A program made the position numbers and the translations under genes. DNA of 64,000 bases from positions 126,095 to 190,094 of the forward strand of contig JAURNW010000024.1 in NCBI GenBank assembly GCA_030829985.1, written 5' to 3'. Of the stretch, positions 26,242-63,465 are shown in pieces. Origin of the DNA: Gammaproteobacteria bacterium. Lineage in GTDB: Bacteria; Pseudomonadota; Gammaproteobacteria; Eutrophobiales; Eutrophobiaceae. Position 1 is the first letter of the stretch; each line of letters begins with the position of its first letter. The notes beneath the pieces were generated by a model. It saw only the letters and a program-made list of their open reading frames with translations. It did not search any database and was not told where the DNA came from.

Positions 26242-26808
26242 CTAAACAAGGGTAGCAATGAAATCGTAGGTACTCTCATTTTTTATTACATCACCCGTAT
26301 GTATCTGGAACTTACCCTGAGTTCTATCTTTAAAATAACACCTTAAGGTTTCCGTTATTGTTCGGAATGCGAGTTTATCCCAGGGTATTTCATCTTCAGT
26401 AAACAATTTAACTTCCAGACTTTCAATGCCCGGGGAAAATTCCAGGTCGAGTAATCTTGATCGGAACATCATATAAACTTGATCGACATGCGGTAAATTA
26501 AATACTGCAAAAAGATCCTCAACTTCAACTCTTGCGTTCGCCTCTTCAAGTGTTTCTCGTATACCTGCCTCGAGACTCGATTCGCCTAATTCCATAAATC
26601 CGGCTGGCAATGTCCAATATCCTAAGCGCGGTTCAATTGCACGTTTGCAAAGTAATATCTTATCTTCCCAAACTGGAATGCAACCAGCCACTATTTTAGG
26701 GTTCTGATAATGGATTATGTCGCATCGCAGACAGATATAACGATGGCGATTATCATCATCGGGAATGTCATAAATTAATTCTTCACTACAGTAACAACAA
26801 TATTTCAT
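26242..26808 (-). CDS. Nudix hydrolase with N-terminal zinc ribbon
   Basis: The 188-residue protein has a CxxC...CxxC zinc ribbon (Cys4, Cys7, Cys26, Cys29) followed by a Nudix domain. The Nudix box reads GFMELGESSLEAGIRETLEEA; its Gly, the Glu after five residues, and the RExxEE core are present, although the usual Gly near the end of the box is Asn. Zinc-ribbon Nudix proteins of this type (NudC-like or the NMN/ADP-ribose group) hydrolyse nucleoside diphosphate derivatives. The substrate is not predictable. Its ATG overlaps the tesA stop (ATGA), so the two are co-translated. Confidence 0.88.
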   Translation of the reverse strand: MKYCCYCSEELIYDIPDDDNRHRYICLRCDIIHYQNPKIVAGCIPVWEDKILLCKRAIEPRLGYWTLPAGFMELGESSLEAGIRETLEEANARVEVEDLFAVFNLPHVDQVYMMFRSRLLDLEFSPGIESLEVKLFTEDEIPWDKLAFRTITETLRCYFKDRTQGKFQIHTGDVIKNESTYDFIATLV

Positions 26809-27416
26809 TTGTGTATCAACGCTTTCAAATCAGGCCAGATATTTTCCAGCATAACAGCCTGAGCGGCTTGCACCGGATGCAATCCGTCCGCCTGCATTAA
26901 CTCCGGATATTGCGCAATATCATCAAGAATAAATTTTGATAAATTCACATTCATATTATCTGATACCGATTTATAAATTGACATAAAACGTTGATTGTAA
27001 GCCGCACCATAGTTGGGAGGTAATTGCATTGGTACTAGCAAGACTTCAGCTCCGTACTTTTTAATTTTTATTACTATATCCGACAAGTTTTTTTCTATTT
27101 CCGCAAGCGCAAAGCCTCTTAAACCATCGTTTGCACCTAATTCAATAATGACAAATTCCGGTTGATGTTCTTTTAATAATTTATCAAGACGTGTTCTGGC
27201 ACCTAAAGTTGTTTCACCGCTGATGCTTGCATTGAGAACCTTATAATTTAATTCTTGTCCTATTATTCGTTGTTCCAGTAAAGATACCCACCCCTGTTCT
27301 ACTGGTATACCATAAGCTGCACTTAGGCTATCGCCCAGGACAAGAATATTCTTTCCCTGCGCACTCACAGGAAAAATAATAAAATAAATAACAAATAATA
27401 AGTTTCGGTAATACAT
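26805..27416 (-). CDS. tesA: Periplasmic SGNH esterase TesA (thioesterase I/lysophospholipase L1)
   Basis: The 203-residue protein has a signal peptide cleaved near VSA-QG (residue 19/20). The SGNH blocks are GDSLSAAYG (nucleophile Ser30), GANDGLRG and DGLHP (catalytic Asp and His). This is the multifunctional periplasmic thioesterase/arylesterase TesA. It is divergent from ybbA with only 5 bp between start codons, and overlaps a Nudix gene downstream by 4 bp. Confidence 0.94.
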   Translation of the reverse strand: MYYRNLLFVIYFIIFPVSAQGKNILVLGDSLSAAYGIPVEQGWVSLLEQRIIGQELNYKVLNASISGETTLGARTRLDKLLKEHQPEFVIIELGANDGLRGFALAEIEKNLSDIVIKIKKYGAEVLLVPMQLPPNYGAAYNQRFMSIYKSVSDNMNVNLSKFILDDIAQYPELMQADGLHPVQAAQAVMLENIWPDLKALIHK

Positions 27417-39096: not shown

Positions 39097-40305
39097 ATGA
39101 AAACCTATTTAGTCGGTGGCGCCGTAAGAGACAAACTCCTGGGAATTCCGGTTAAAGATCGGGATTGGGTTGTAGTGGGTACAACACCTGATGAAATGCT
39201 GAACAAAGGGTTTAAACCTGTTGGCAAAGACTTCCCGGTTTTTTTACATCCCGAGACCAAGGAAGAATATGCACTGGCACGTACTGAACGAAAATCAGGT
39301 AAAGGTTATAAGGGCTTCACCTTCCACACCTCTTCCGACGTTACTCTGGAAGAGGATCTACAACGCCGAGACTTAACTATTAACGCTATTGCCGAAGATG
39401 AAAATGGCAATCTGATTGATCCTTATGCCGGGGAAGTAGATCTGCAAGAAAAGATGTTGCGTCATGTATCACCCGCATTTGTAGAAGACCCTTTACGTGT
39501 ATTACGTATAGCTCGTTTTGCTGCAACTCTTGGCTTCAAGATTGCGCCGGAAACCATGGCCTTATTAAAAGAAATAGCTGACTCAGATGAATTAGACGCA
39601 CTTGTGGCAGAACGCGTCTGGACAGAAATGGAAAAAGCTCTGGCTGGAAAATACCCGGCACGTTTTATACTGGCATTACAATCATGCAATGCCCTGCAGA
39701 AATTATTTCCCGAAATACAGGCATTATTCGGTATACCACAAACCAAAGAATACCACCCTGAGATCGATACCGGCCTGCATACAATAATGAGCTTAAATCA
39801 ATCGACGCGTTTATCTCCCGATCCAATGATACGGTTTGCTGTACTAGTTCATGATCTTGGCAAAGCAACAACACCTAAAGATAAATTACCCAGCCACCAT
39901 GGTCATGAAGAACGTGGCGCAAAAATAATTGATGAACTATGCAAACGGTATCGAGTTCCTAACAAATACCGTGAACTTGCCATGAATGTTTCCAGATTCC
40001 ATCTGGACTGTCATCGCATTCGAGAAATGAAACCGGAAACAATTCTAAAAAAGCTTGAACAACTTGATGCCTTTAGAAGGCCGGAACGATTCACGCAATT
40101 CCTGATCGCTTGCGAAGCTGACGCCCGCGGCCGAGCCGGTTTTGAAGATAGGGATTACCCACAAGCAGAATATTTCATGAATGCTCTAGACGCTGCTAAT
40201 AAAGTTGATGTTAGCGAATTAAAAAATACCGGGCTGGAAGGAAGAGTGCTAGGACAAGCGATAAAAAAACATCAAATAGAAAATATTAAAGAATTGCTGA
40301 CTTAA
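39097..40305 (+). CDS. cca: CCA-adding tRNA nucleotidyltransferase with HD domain
   Basis: The 402-residue enzyme adds or repairs the 3' CCA of tRNAs. The nucleotidyltransferase motif is YLVGGAVRDKLLG with DRD, then RRDLTINAIA and VEDPLRVLRIARFAA. The C-terminal HD domain has VLVHDLGKATTP and HHGHEERGAK, giving phosphatase and phosphodiesterase activities in E. coli-type enzymes. The length is near that of E. coli Cca (412). Confidence 0.97.
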   Translation: MKTYLVGGAVRDKLLGIPVKDRDWVVVGTTPDEMLNKGFKPVGKDFPVFLHPETKEEYALARTERKSGKGYKGFTFHTSSDVTLEEDLQRRDLTINAIAEDENGNLIDPYAGEVDLQEKMLRHVSPAFVEDPLRVLRIARFAATLGFKIAPETMALLKEIADSDELDALVAERVWTEMEKALAGKYPARFILALQSCNALQKLFPEIQALFGIPQTKEYHPEIDTGLHTIMSLNQSTRLSPDPMIRFAVLVHDLGKATTPKDKLPSHHGHEERGAKIIDELCKRYRVPNKYRELAMNVSRFHLDCHRIREMKPETILKKLEQLDAFRRPERFTQFLIACEADARGRAGFEDRDYPQAEYFMNALDAANKVDVSELKNTGLEGRVLGQAIKKHQIENIKELLT

Positions 40306-40322
40306 TATAAAAAGGAAACTGT

Positions 40323-43391: not shown

Positions 43392-44138
43392 ATGAATCAA
43401 ATAATTATGAACAATAAAACTGCATTAATAACCGGAGCTGCAAAACGCATCGGTGCGGCTATAGCGACGCAACTCCATTCATCCGGCATGAATGTTGTTA
43501 TTCACTATAATACTTCTGCTAAAGAAGCTCACGAACTGGTGCGCAAACTAAATGGCATTCGTCGGGATTCAGCTATTATGGTTCAGGCAAACCTTGAACA
43601 TAAGGAATATTACGCAGCATTGATAGACGCAAGTATTGATTTTAAAGGCGGCCTTGATGTCTTAATCAATAACGCCTCGGCATACTACCCAACACCTTTG
43701 GATTCGCTGGCAGATCAACAATGGAATGAATTAATAAATACCAACCTTAAGGCGCCACTATTTCTGTCAAAACTTGCTGCAAAATCACTGCGTTTAAATA
43801 AAGGCTGCATTATTAATATTACTGATATTCATGCAAACCGCCCTTTGAGTAATCATTCTATTTATAGTGTGTCCAAAGCTGGACTTGTGATGCTAACCCA
43901 GTCTTTGGCCAAAGAACTCGCGCCAGGAATAAGGGTGAATGCAATTTCGCCCGGAGTAATTATGTGGCCTGAAGGTTTAGAAGAAGAAAAAAAGAGCGCG
44001 ATACTCAATGAAACAATGATGAAGAGAATGGGCAATGTGGAAGATATCACCAAGGCCGTTTTATTCTTAATCAATGACGCTGACTATATCACCGGTCAAA
44101 TAATAAATATTGATGGGGGCAGAACGCTCTATTCATAA
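43392..44138 (+). CDS. folM: Pteridine/dihydromonapterin reductase FolM (SDR family)
   Basis: The 248-residue SDR has the cofactor motif TGAAKRIGAAIA, in which the Arg in TGxxxRxG is typical of pteridine reductases. It also has NNASAYYPTP and the active site YSVSKAG. The C-terminal ISPGVIMWPEGLEEE and GQIINIDGGRTLYS are characteristic. FolM/PTR1 proteins reduce dihydromonapterin or dihydrofolate with NADPH. No Shine-Dalgarno is present and an in-frame ATG at 43407 is an alternative start. It lies near the folB-folK operon, consistent with pterin metabolism. Confidence 0.9.
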   Translation: MNQIIMNNKTALITGAAKRIGAAIATQLHSSGMNVVIHYNTSAKEAHELVRKLNGIRRDSAIMVQANLEHKEYYAALIDASIDFKGGLDVLINNASAYYPTPLDSLADQQWNELINTNLKAPLFLSKLAAKSLRLNKGCIINITDIHANRPLSNHSIYSVSKAGLVMLTQSLAKELAPGIRVNAISPGVIMWPEGLEEEKKSAILNETMMKRMGNVEDITKAVLFLINDADYITGQIINIDGGRTLYS

Positions 44139-44141
44139 GTA

Positions 44142-44552
44142 TTAAAATTTTGGAAACTCTCCATCAACAAACCATTGGTTGGTCTCTTGATTAACCCACC
44201 ACCGCTGATTTAATTTTAATTTCCTGATCGTACCTTGATCTTTAAAAAAATAACTTATCTCTGTTTTTACAGTCGCTTCGGTATGATCTTCATTAATAAT
44301 TTTTTCAATCACTTTAACACTGGTGACACTCAGTTCTTTAAGCGACTCTAAATCAGCAGGAGGTTGTGTACCATTAGGTGAAACATGATAACTATATGCT
44401 TCGGGATATTGAGCCCATCTCATAGCCACATCGTAACTAGTAATTGCGGCTTCAATATTATTCACCCTTTTTTGTGTCGTGTATCTGTTGCAGCCACTGA
44501 GCAACACAATAAAAACAACAAAGATTAATTTGGATAAAACGCCAATTTTCAT
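44142..44552 (-). CDS. Putative small lipoprotein of unknown function
   Basis: From ATG 44552 the product has 136 residues. It has a signal with lipobox LLSGC (Cys about 21), then a 115-residue mature domain with one helix (NIEAAITSYDVAMRWAQYPEAY) and strands ending in NQRWWVNQETNQWFVDGEFPKF. The pattern of a helix plus beta sheet with a terminal WFVDG suggests an NTF2-like fold, but I cannot identify a family. An in-frame ATG at 44582 gives a longer, less likely N-terminus. It converges with folM, 3 bp apart. Confidence 0.68.
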   Translation of the reverse strand: MKIGVLSKLIFVVFIVLLSGCNRYTTQKRVNNIEAAITSYDVAMRWAQYPEAYSYHVSPNGTQPPADLESLKELSVTSVKVIEKIINEDHTEATVKTEISYFFKDQGTIRKLKLNQRWWVNQETNQWFVDGEFPKF

Positions 44553-44623
44553 TTCACAGCACCCCGTTTTTGTAACACACATTATTACAGTCTATGGAGA
44601 AATTTTCATCTCTACATCCATTT

Positions 44624-45232
44624 TTATAGCTCTATCTCATTCAGTCCGGCATAAATAATATCTGCATAGTCATGATTCGCCTGCAATGATAAATGAAGTT
44701 CATCATCCGACAAAAAATCAACTGTTTTAATACCTCGTTCTGTCATTTGTAACGGTATATCAATTAATCTCGCACCTGATTGAGCTGCTATTTTTCTAAT
44801 CGTCTTGTTATAGGGTAAAAAATTATCATTATATTTTTTACCATTGCCTTGCTCACCATCAACCTCGCCTATGGTGTGATTGAGTAAAAAAACCGGGATA
44901 CCTTTCTTCGTTGCAATGATGCGGTGAAACTCTTTCAAATTCTTTTCAAACTCCGCCAGACTCACGCGCGGTTCAATAGTAAAATCCTTTACATTTGCAT
45001 CATTAAATCCAAATTGAATTAATACAATACCGGGTAAAAAAGGCAAGACATCCGTATCAATTCTATCAAAGCCCTGGGCGCTGGTATTGCCACCAATCCC
45101 TTTATTATGTACTTCAAATACATCTGGCTTAGCCACGTCCAGTTTCATTTTTAATAGAGTGGTCCATCGATCATTAACCGAAAATTCAGCTCCTTCGGTG
45201 ATTGAATCGCCAAAACAAATTATATTAATCAT
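44624..45232 (-). CDS. SGNH/GDSL-family hydrolase
   Basis: The 202-residue protein without signal has the SGNH blocks: FGDSITEGAEF (nucleophile Ser in block I), GIGGNTS (block II), QFGFNDAN (block III) and DELHLS (block V Asp-x-x-His). Such enzymes hydrolyse esters, lysophospholipids or carbohydrate acetyl groups. Its ATG overlaps the ancestral TGA of folK (ATGA at 45229-45232). The folK premature stop would remove that translational coupling. Confidence 0.85.
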   Translation of the reverse strand: MINIICFGDSITEGAEFSVNDRWTTLLKMKLDVAKPDVFEVHNKGIGGNTSAQGFDRIDTDVLPFLPGIVLIQFGFNDANVKDFTIEPRVSLAEFEKNLKEFHRIIATKKGIPVFLLNHTIGEVDGEQGNGKKYNDNFLPYNKTIRKIAAQSGARLIDIPLQMTERGIKTVDFLSDDELHLSLQANHDYADIIYAGLNEIEL

Positions 45233-45723
45233 AAATGGAATGACTGTGGTATAGGTCTCATTATTTGTCCTGTCGAATCAAATTTTTCCCACAACTGCGA
45301 GATAGTTTGGCCTGTCACTGGATGTTTTAGATCTGGAGCAATATCCAAAAGTGGCTTCAATACAAAGCCAAATTAGGTTATATCCGATCTGGGAACATGA
45401 TGTATTTCACTAATATGATCGGCGAACATTAATAAATCTATATCTAAGGTACGAGATGAATAACGGATTTCATTCTTGTTTCGACCAAATTGATATTCAA
45501 TTTCACGCAACTGTTTTGCCAGAGCATCTATATCCAGTTCTGTATTTAATCCGACAACCAGGTTGTAAAAATCAGCGCCATCGAAACCAAAGGATTTACT
45601 CTCATAAACTGGCGAAATAGATAATTCACCATAACGTGATTGCAACTCCTTTAAACCATCACGAATATTTACATCAGGATCAATATTACTACCAATACCC
45701 AGATAAACTCGATTTATCGTCAT
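45229..45723 (-). pseudogene. folK: folK (HPPK) interrupted by an in-frame TAA
   Basis: The product up to the stop at 45373-45375 is 116 residues, while HPPK is normally about 160. It has the N-terminal VYLGIGSNIDPDVN, YESKSFGF and the catalytic TLDIDLLMF (Asp-x-Asp), then HVPRSDIT followed by TAA. Continuing in the same frame gives FGFVLKPLLDIAPDLKHP and VTGQTISQLW, the expected HPPK C-terminus, to a TGA at 45229-45231 (164 sense codons plus the one stop). Relatives have Glu near this position, and GAA-to-TAA needs one change. A truncated but active protein, readthrough or a sequencing error are alternatives. It overlaps folB (ATGA). Confidence 0.8.
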
Positions 45724-46076
45724 CCTTTACTACCACGTTCTATAATAACGCCCACATCTCTGACGCCACGTACAGCACCCTTTTTATTAAGTGATAGACG
45801 AATCCAGGGCACAGCAAACTCGGCCATGATAATCTCGGCTATTTTTTCAGCTAGTGCCTCCACCAACTCAAATTCACTCTCACCGACATATGTCATTAAG
45901 CGTTTTGCAACTGCTTTGTAATTAAGCGTATCTTCAATATTATCGCTGTTAGCGGCCCGACGTATATCCGTTCCCATTTCCAGATCGATAATAATCGTCT
46001 GCTTCATCCGGCGTTCCCAATCATATATGCCAATGATGGTATCGATCCTCAGATCACGGAGATAAATAATATCCAT
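45720..46076 (-). CDS. folB: Dihydroneopterin aldolase FolB
   Basis: The 118-residue enzyme converts dihydroneopterin to hydroxymethyl-dihydropterin in folate synthesis. It begins MDIIYLRDLRIDTIIGIYDWERR, with the catalytic Glu (IGIYDWE), and has TLNYKAVAKR and FELVEALAEKIAEII, and the KKGAVRGVRDVGVIIER ending. The stop overlaps the folK start (ATGA). It is the first gene of the folB-folK-SGNH unit and divergent from plsY. Confidence 0.96.
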   Translation of the reverse strand: MDIIYLRDLRIDTIIGIYDWERRMKQTIIIDLEMGTDIRRAANSDNIEDTLNYKAVAKRLMTYVGESEFELVEALAEKIAEIIMAEFAVPWIRLSLNKKGAVRGVRDVGVIIERGSKG

Positions 46077-52776: not shown

Positions 52777-53214
52777 ATGACGAATAAAAATAAATTAATC
52801 ATATTGTTTGCGACTTTATTTCTTACGTATTCTCTTTATGCCGTTGAAGTTGAGGAATATGCGGCTATCGAGGTATACGGAATATATGAAGTATATGAAT
52901 GTTCGATAGACACTATCTATGCAATGGGCCATGGCGAATCTACTGACCTTCATGGTGGTAAACTGGTTATCACGGTCACAAATGATGAAGTCGACGTAAA
53001 AAGTGATCGTAAAGGAGTTGATTCCGGGCTTTTGAGGTTGGTGGTTAGGACAGAAGTTGAAATCGTCGCAATTAATGAAACCATGCAATTTACATATCAG
53101 ATTTATGCCAACAAGTATTCCTTCACTACGGGAAATGGTGATTCAAGATTTAGAGGTGGTGTTGGGCATGCAGGCAGGCAATTGTTAGTCTATGGCCCAT
53201 GCAAAGACATTTAA
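52777..53214 (+). CDS. Small secreted protein of unknown function, paralogue 1
   Basis: From ATG 52777 the product has 145 residues with a signal peptide (LIILFATLFLTYSLYAVEV, cleaved near LYA-VEV). The mature part has CSIDTIYAMGHGESTD, VITVTNDEVDVKSDRKGVDSG, LRLVVRTEVEIVAIN and GGVGHAGRQLLVYGPC. Two Cys flank the domain and could form a disulfide. It aligns throughout with the next gene. I recognise no family. An in-frame ATG at 52675 would give a poor N-terminus. Confidence 0.7.
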   Translation: MTNKNKLIILFATLFLTYSLYAVEVEEYAAIEVYGIYEVYECSIDTIYAMGHGESTDLHGGKLVITVTNDEVDVKSDRKGVDSGLLRLVVRTEVEIVAINETMQFTYQIYANKYSFTTGNGDSRFRGGVGHAGRQLLVYGPCKDI

Positions 53215-53347: not shown

Positions 53348-53752
53348 ATGCCTGAAAACATATTAGTCTTGTTATTAACATCTTTGTTTATTTCAAACGC
53401 CTATGCTGTTGAACCGAGGGAGTATGTGTGCGCAGTTGACAGTGTTTACGTAATGGCCGACGGTATGTCTTCTGATGAGTATGATGAAGAAGATCATCAA
53501 CAATTAGTAGTAAAAATTAATGCAGATGATGTCAAAATTGAGAGTGCTGTCGAAGGGATTGAATCCGGTGATCTGAAGTTAATAGTGAATACAGATTTTG
53601 AAATTGTTGCCATCAATAAAAGCATGCAATATTCATATAGTATTACGACTAAAAAATTCTCGTTAACTACAGGGATTGGTAAATCCGGATTCAAATCCGG
53701 AGTTGGTCATTTCGGTAATCAAATGCTAATTTATGGCAAGTGTACTGAATAA
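53348..53752 (+). CDS. Small secreted protein of unknown function, paralogue 2
   Basis: The 134-residue protein has a signal peptide (NILVLLLTSLFISNAYAVEP). It shares CAVDSVYVMADGMSSDEYDEED, LKLIVNTDFEIVAINKSMQYSYSI and SGVGHFGNQMLIYGKC with paralogue 1, including both flanking Cys. The acidic insert DEYDEED is extra. The pair is a tandem duplication of a periplasmic or secreted protein. Function is unknown. Confidence 0.7.
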   Translation: MPENILVLLLTSLFISNAYAVEPREYVCAVDSVYVMADGMSSDEYDEEDHQQLVVKINADDVKIESAVEGIESGDLKLIVNTDFEIVAINKSMQYSYSITTKKFSLTTGIGKSGFKSGVGHFGNQMLIYGKCTE

Positions 53753-61485: not shown

Positions 61486-63465
61486 ATGAAAACTTTCACT
61501 ATAGTCGTTATCACACTATTTTCTGCATCACAGTATGTGTATTCAGAAGAACCAACAACACTTGAAGAATATACCATCACTGCCAGACCGATTGGCTTAC
61601 AAAGCATTGAGCACATTGCACAACCAATCACTGTACTTAAAGGTGAAGAATTAGCCAAGAAGCAATCGACAACTATTGGTGAAACACTTTCTAATATACC
61701 TGGCGTGTCGACAAATCGATTCAGCCCACTCGCTAGTAGACCCGTCATTCGTGGCTTAGGTGGCTCACGCGTCCAAATATTAGAAAATGGAATCGGCTCG
61801 CAGGATGTTTCCACAATCAGTGTTGATCACGCTGTCACTATTGAGTCAATCTATGCGGAACAGGTCGAGATATTCCGCGGCCCCTCAACATTACTTTATG
61901 GTAGCGAGGCCTCAGGAGGACTGGTCAATGTCGTCACTAACCGAATACCGGAATATGTACCTGAGTCATTCAATGCGAATATATATTCTAGTTTTAATAC
62001 TAACTCTGTTGAGAAATTATTTTCTATTAAGGCTGAAGGTGGTCATGACAAGATGGCATTTCATCTCGATGGGACGAATCGTGATGCTAAAAATTATGCC
62101 GCCAAACAAGGCCAGATTTTTAATAGCTTCTATGATTCCAAGAATATTAATTTAGGCACATCGTTTGTCGATGATTGGGGCTTTATTGGTATTTCTTATG
62201 GTCGCTTTGATTCAACCCACGGTGTCCCACTCAACCCTGATGATCAGAGTGAGTTACCTTTTATTGATACCGAACAGAATCGCACTACGCTCTCTGGACA
62301 AGTCAATGAGCCGTTTACTGGTATAAAAGCCATCAATTTACAATTGGGTTATAGCGACTATCAACATACAGAGTTTGAAGATGCTGCATCGCCAGGAACC
62401 GTGTTTAATAATGAACAACTGGATGGACGTATCGAATTCCAGCATGAAAAAATTGGCCCGTTTAATGGCGTTATCGGCACACAATTTGGCTATCGAGATG
62501 TCAGCGCGGTAGGCGATGAAGCCTTTTTACCTAAAACAAGTACCGAAAGATTTGCGGTTTTTATTTTAGAAGAAACCGATATTACTGATACATTACATTT
62601 TGAAATCGGTGGGCGCTATGAAAATCAAGAAAGTGATCCTGATAACGCTGCAACAGTGAGTCACGATTTGTATAGCATCTCTTCCGGCATTCATTGGCAC
62701 TTTATCGAAGATACTGCATTGGGCCTGAATATTAGTCGTAGTCAACGTGGAGCTGCGGCTGAAGAGTTGTTTGCCAACGGGCCCCATATCGCAACCGGTA
62801 CTTTTGAGCTTGGTCAGTCAAGCCTGGATATCGAAACAGCTAACAGTATCGATATCTCACTAGCGCAAGAAAAGGGTATAGTGCAATGGAACCTCAATCT
62901 ATTCGTCAACTATATTGAAGACTTTATCTTCTTACAAGGTCTGGATAGAAACGGTGACGGGCTTGTTGATGAGGTCGATGATACAGGGGCAGCGCCAGGT
63001 GAACTTACCCTCGTCCAATTTCAACAGAACAATGCGGTTTTCTATGGCTTTGAAGTTGCAACAGGTATTAATCTTTACTCTGGTAATCTAGGTGATCTCA
63101 ACTTTAGTCTTTTTGGAGATTATGTTCGTGCTGAACTCGAGAACGGTGATAATTTGCCACGCATATCTCCGGCTAAGATTGGAAGTGGAATTGACTATAA
63201 CTACAAAAATCTTTCTGCGGGTTTAGATTTCACAAGCTTTCTCGCACAGAATGAAAATGCTGCTTTGGAAACCGACACAGGTGGTTATTCTATTTTGAAT
63301 TTCAATGCTAACTACGACATAACTTCAGGTAACCAAGGGATAAACCTTTTCGTAAAAGCAAATAATTTATTAGATGAGGATGGCAGGTTACATACATCTT
63401 TTATTAAAGATCGGGCACCCGTTATGGGAAGATCACTTATTGTTGGGTTCCAAGCCAGTTTTTAA
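61486..63465 (+). CDS. znuD: TonB-dependent zinc receptor ZnuD-like
   Basis: The 659-residue outer membrane receptor has a signal peptide, then a plug domain (ITVLKGEELAKKQSTTIGETLSNIPGVSTNRFSP, RPVIRGLGGSRVQILENGI) and a C-terminal beta-barrel ending in IVGFQASF. The strong resemblance of its plug to ZnuD-type receptors, plus its place behind a Zur box and a zinc chaperone-like gene, make zinc the probable substrate. An AGGAA site precedes the ATG. Lack of zinc-binding loops cannot be judged. Confidence 0.9.
   Translation: MKTFTIVVITLFSASQYVYSEEPTTLEEYTITARPIGLQSIEHIAQPITVLKGEELAKKQSTTIGETLSNIPGVSTNRFSPLASRPVIRGLGGSRVQILENGIGSQDVSTISVDHAVTIESIYAEQVEIFRGPSTLLYGSEASGGLVNVVTNRIPEYVPESFNANIYSSFNTNSVEKLFSIKAEGGHDKMAFHLDGTNRDAKNYAAKQGQIFNSFYDSKNINLGTSFVDDWGFIGISYGRFDSTHGVPLNPDDQSELPFIDTEQNRTTLSGQVNEPFTGIKAINLQLGYSDYQHTEFEDAASPGTVFNNEQLDGRIEFQHEKIGPFNGVIGTQFGYRDVSAVGDEAFLPKTSTERFAVFILEETDITDTLHFEIGGRYENQESDPDNAATVSHDLYSISSGIHWHFIEDTALGLNISRSQRGAAAEELFANGPHIATGTFELGQSSLDIETANSIDISLAQEKGIVQWNLNLFVNYIEDFIFLQGLDRNGDGLVDEVDDTGAAPGELTLVQFQQNNAVFYGFEVATGINLYSGNLGDLNFSLFGDYVRAELENGDNLPRISPAKIGSGIDYNYKNLSAGLDFTSFLAQNENAALETDTGGYSILNFNANYDITSGNQGINLFVKANNLLDEDGRLHTSFIKDRAPVMGRSLIVGFQASF

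Follow-up and report, generated by a model that had tools for sequence, protein, structure and literature searches.

A private in-frame stop codon in a folB-linked folK paralog, most likely a recent loss or a one-base assembly error, in a genome with an intact canonical folK

Introduction

In the genome assembly of a gammaproteobacterium of the family Eutrophobiaceae (GCA_030829985.1), a folK gene, predicted to encode an HPPK, is split by one in-frame stop codon and remains readable beyond it. The gene lies in a stretch of 64,000 nucleotides (contig JAURNW010000024.1, positions 126,095 to 190,094) that we call the window and whose numbering is used here. A sequence-only reading of this stretch had offered five explanations, namely a recent nonsense mutation, a functional truncated enzyme, a second folK, readthrough, or a sequencing or assembly error. 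The question raised by this locus is which of these accounts for a seemingly broken essential gene.

Results

Translation of the minus strand from 45723 to 45229 gave a folK frame that begins MTINRVYLGIGSNI, reads VPRSDIT up to the stop, resumes with FGFVLKPLLDIAPDLKHP and ends in SFHL. Its only internal stop is the TAA at 45373-45375, and its terminal TGA (45231-45229) overlaps the ATG (45232-45230) of an SGNH-type hydrolase gene. Both points agree with the sequence-only reading, from which the strand was absent. Because duplicated folK genes have been described in which a folate operon holds one copy and a pantothenate operon the other (PMC1971073), we call the window gene, a folB-linked HPPK paralog, folK2 and the canonical copy in the pantothenate cluster folK1. 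The locus has the following features.

45373..45723, minus strand: folK2 (HPPK paralog), 116-codon open part up to the premature TAA (ORF list; Pfam PF01288, 80 bits; TIGR01498, 75 bits)
45373..45375, minus strand: premature TAA at folK2 codon 117, followed by T; genus relatives have Glu (GAA/GAG) or Lys
45229..45372, minus strand: remaining C-terminal coding part of folK2, conserved, 47 codons plus the original TGA, with the Phe that corresponds to F123, the pterin-stacking residue in E. coli HPPK
45720..46076, minus strand: folB (dihydroneopterin aldolase-like), intact, directly upstream of folK2 with an ATGA overlap; 83-94% identity to the folK2-adjacent folB in genus relatives
44624..45232, minus strand: SGNH-type hydrolase gene, intact, downstream of folK2, its start overlapping the original folK2 stop
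43392..44138, plus strand: SDR reductase of the folM/pteridine-reductase kind, a convergent neighbour conserved in relatives

The names folB, SGNH hydrolase and folM-like SDR are ones that we presume from sequence knowledge. The order folB-folK2-SGNH hydrolase is retained in most genomes of the genus. At the local base composition a stop-free tail of 47 codons has a chance of about 3%, and a chance origin is irrelevant because the tail shares 64-72% amino-acid identity with its closest relatives. Elsewhere in the window, the neighbouring stretches 52777-53208 and 53357-53749 align to the same 145-aa protein of a relative, with 53% and 37% identity, which makes them a local tandem duplication.

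A search of the window genome (35 contigs, 2.17 Mb) for the second folK that had been suggested found two HPPK genes in addition to that of the window, C17:100990 and C33:22154, giving three in all. C17:100990 is folK1, an intact, canonical gene that encodes a protein of 163 aa with the active-site His and Arg present (VPHAEISNRSFVL). It lies beyond the window, at a distance of 25 kb, in a cluster that reads pcnB, folK, a deoxynucleoside-kinase-like gene, panB, panC and panD, where the neighbours are what we take them to be from sequence knowledge. In Tenacibaculum (L067-L069) FolK is fused to a deoxynucleoside-kinase-like domain, and the same two genes are adjacent in the window genome (L078 12269-13401). 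C33:22154 (L053 3143-3547) is intact and short, with a folK-like product of 134 aa. It stands in divergent orientation to an SDR gene of the folM/pteridine-reductase kind, and several members of the genus have this short third gene. The window genome also contains an intact folP-type gene. The tension with HPPK essentiality that the split gene had implied is thereby gone: the window gene is a folB-linked paralog, and with canonical folK1 intact in the pantothenate cluster its loss would be tolerated.

We found folK2 in 10 of the 11 other genomes of the genus, one of which has two, and all 11 copies are open at codon 117. Neither folK2 nor a match to the region was found in the remaining genome (G011), which is 87% complete. 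The residue at the stop site is Glu (GAA or GAG) in ten of these copies and Lys in that of G004, and TAA is one substitution away from GAA, as the sequence-only reading had proposed. That reading would have been undermined had all relatives carried the same short folK; every copy in the relatives is full length. The Pfam search listed HPPK matches for 58 relatives, and none of these matches contains an internal stop. An internal TGA is displayed for folK1 of G007 and G003, both of which are listed as open in the Pfam search. Judged from these sequences, the folK2 stop is private to this one genome. A gene that is disrupted where its orthologs in related genomes are intact shows one mark of a pseudogene, and this holds for the window folK2. 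In G002 there are two folK2 genes on different contigs (L035, L036) that differ at 6 of 495 bases, mostly at third positions; this pair is either a recent duplication or a strain mixture.

Compared with its closest relatives, folK2 has 65-69% identity in the body and 64-72% in the tail, and in body and tail alike about 47-50% of third codon positions are identical and about 80% of positions one and two. The similar values and the third-position pattern indicate that both parts were under purifying selection until very recently. In a relative-rate comparison with the outgroup G001, the window gene gave 59% for the body and 51% for the tail and the intact copy of G007 gave 58% and 47%. Neither the body nor the tail of the window folK2 evolved faster than the intact copies, and the relaxed constraint that marks a pseudogene after its disruption was absent. 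With the tail as conserved as the body and no acceleration in either, the stop is very recent or a one-base consensus error. The nearest relatives, at about 73% DNA identity to the window, are too distant for dating the stop, and a scan of viral contigs found no DNA of the same species. We also screened for truncations those 54 window genes for which two relatives have homologs, and folK2 was the sole clear case. At 26805-27416, 44142-44582, 61486-63465 and 39097-40311 the apparent in-frame stops turned out to reflect over-extended starts or the C-terminal ends of ORFs in the relatives.

The best explanation, to which we give a probability of roughly 0.6, is a very recent nonsense change in a spare folB-linked folK2 that is tolerated through the intact folK1. 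The base would then be real. A single-base change at codon 117 would have arisen very recently in this one genome and removed the C-terminal residues, most likely inactivating the product, and the cell would cope by means of the canonical folK1 of the pantothenate cluster. Two points count against this reading. In all relatives folK2 is under purifying selection, which implies a useful function whose loss is not obviously neutral, and a one-base consensus error would give an identical picture. Such an error, with a sense codon and an intact folK2 in the true genome, is a serious though clearly less probable alternative. It would account for the conserved, in-frame surroundings of codon 117, with no second lesion and no relaxed constraint, and for the single substitution that separates TAA from the GAA of relatives; the assembly is also imperfect, being in 35 contigs and missing the entire hemA-prfA-prmC block of its relatives. 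However, consensus sequences seldom contain isolated substitution errors, and the 54 conserved window genes contain no other single-base lesion, which indicates that the consensus is generally good.

Against the Pfam HPPK profile (PF01288, curated cut-off 25.7) the open part scored 80 bits; adding the sequence beyond the stop raised this to 96 bits and extended the match over the entire profile. Against TIGR01498 (folK, curated cut-off 54.1) the score was 75 bits for the truncated and 88 bits for the read-through protein, both above the cut-off. The open frame ends at profile position 101 of 116, and the C-terminal region, which includes the Phe that stacks on the pterin, comes only after the TAA. 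The Mg-binding Asp pair, D95/D97 of the E. coli enzyme, is retained in RTLDIDLLMF as D94 and D96. This pair is invariant across 25 aligned sequences and lies with the conserved R81 and R91 upstream of the stop. V121 and P124, also invariant in these 25 sequences, lie in the part lost to it. When aligned with E. coli HPPK, the stop takes the position of N120, three residues ahead of F123, the counterpart of which stacks on the pterin in S. aureus HPPK (PMC3261883). When modelled, with a mean pLDDT of 88, the read-through protein has two helices and one strand beyond the stop and matches solved HPPKs with a TM of about 0.8. The presence of the Asp pair and both Arg residues ahead of the stop would favor a working short HPPK of 116 residues, or a different role for this protein. 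We regard this as very improbable: the protein lacks the Phe that stacks on pterin in solved HPPKs (PMC3261883), the invariant V121 and P124, and two helices and one strand of the modelled fold, and no relative has a short folK2. Because the stacking Phe and the C-terminal helices are missing, the truncated product is probably inactive.

It is very improbable that translational readthrough or stop reassignment yields full-length FolK2, for instance in regulated amounts through weakened termination at the TAA. The conserved tail would fit this, as would the failure to find RF1 (prfA) in the window assembly, but the latter reflects a gap, since the adjacent hemA and the rest of the block are missing too. 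RF2, which also reads TAA, is present, and its gene carries sequence resembling its usual frameshift site. Among the conserved window genes 34 of 54 end in TAA (13 of these in TAAT) and 8 of 54 in TAG, and an anticodon was identified for 37 of 38 tRNA matches, none of them a suppressor. TAA has been described as the least leaky bacterial stop (PMC6764699). Programmed readthrough would conserve both stop and tail in relatives; here the tail is conserved and the stop is private. We rejected the loss of RF1 as a cause of readthrough: prfA occurs in 11 of 12 genomes of the genus, but the window assembly lacks the whole hemA-prfA-prmC block with its flanks at the DNA level, and hemA at the protein level as well. 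This block (L127 5606-13496 in the relative G003) is absent from the window assembly (G000) although that assembly is rated 100% complete, most likely as an assembly gap.

Reinitiation at the in-frame TTG at 45360, 12 bases beyond the stop, to give a two-piece enzyme is the least probable explanation of all, as no Shine-Dalgarno-like stretch is seen ahead of the TTG, the C-terminal piece would be without the stacking Phe, and no relative has a split folK2.

Discussion

Of the explanations first put forward, a second folK was found, a recent nonsense mutation and a sequencing or assembly error both fit the data, and a functional truncated enzyme and readthrough were not supported. The folK2 stop is ordinary, most likely a recent harmless loss or else a one-base assembly error. 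A real nonsense change would resemble recent bacterial pseudogenes with a single nonsense codon, which likewise have one stop in a frame that is otherwise intact and conserved and an intact paralog; no feature is known to set it apart from them.

The arrangement is like that of FolK1/FolK2 in Shewanella denitrificans and Xylella fastidiosa, where there are two folK genes, of which in most described cases one belongs to the pantothenate cluster and the other accompanies folate genes (PMC1971073). Here folK1 is with panB/panC and folK2 with folB; the present genome differs in the nonsense codon in folK2 and in having a third, short folK-like gene. Read-through FolK2 has the same fold (TM about 0.8) and the same Mg-binding Asp pair as the HPPKs of E. 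coli, Yersinia and S. aureus, but differs from solved HPPKs in its identity of about 30% and at two active-site positions. At the positions of H115 and R121 of canonical E. coli HPPK, the folB-linked copies of the genus (L034-L045; 45388-45390 and 45370-45372 in the window) have Arg and Phe/Tyr, with the Asp pair kept. The folB-linked folK2 of the genus may encode a less active or altered enzyme. The activity of both folK copies was left open in the earlier description of such pairs (PMC1971073).

On its own the finding is of small importance. It illustrates well how a gene that looks essential and broken can prove to be one of several paralogs. If the stop is real, it would serve as a hint from nature that the cell can do without the folB-linked folK2 and that folate synthesis is carried by folK1 of the pantothenate cluster.
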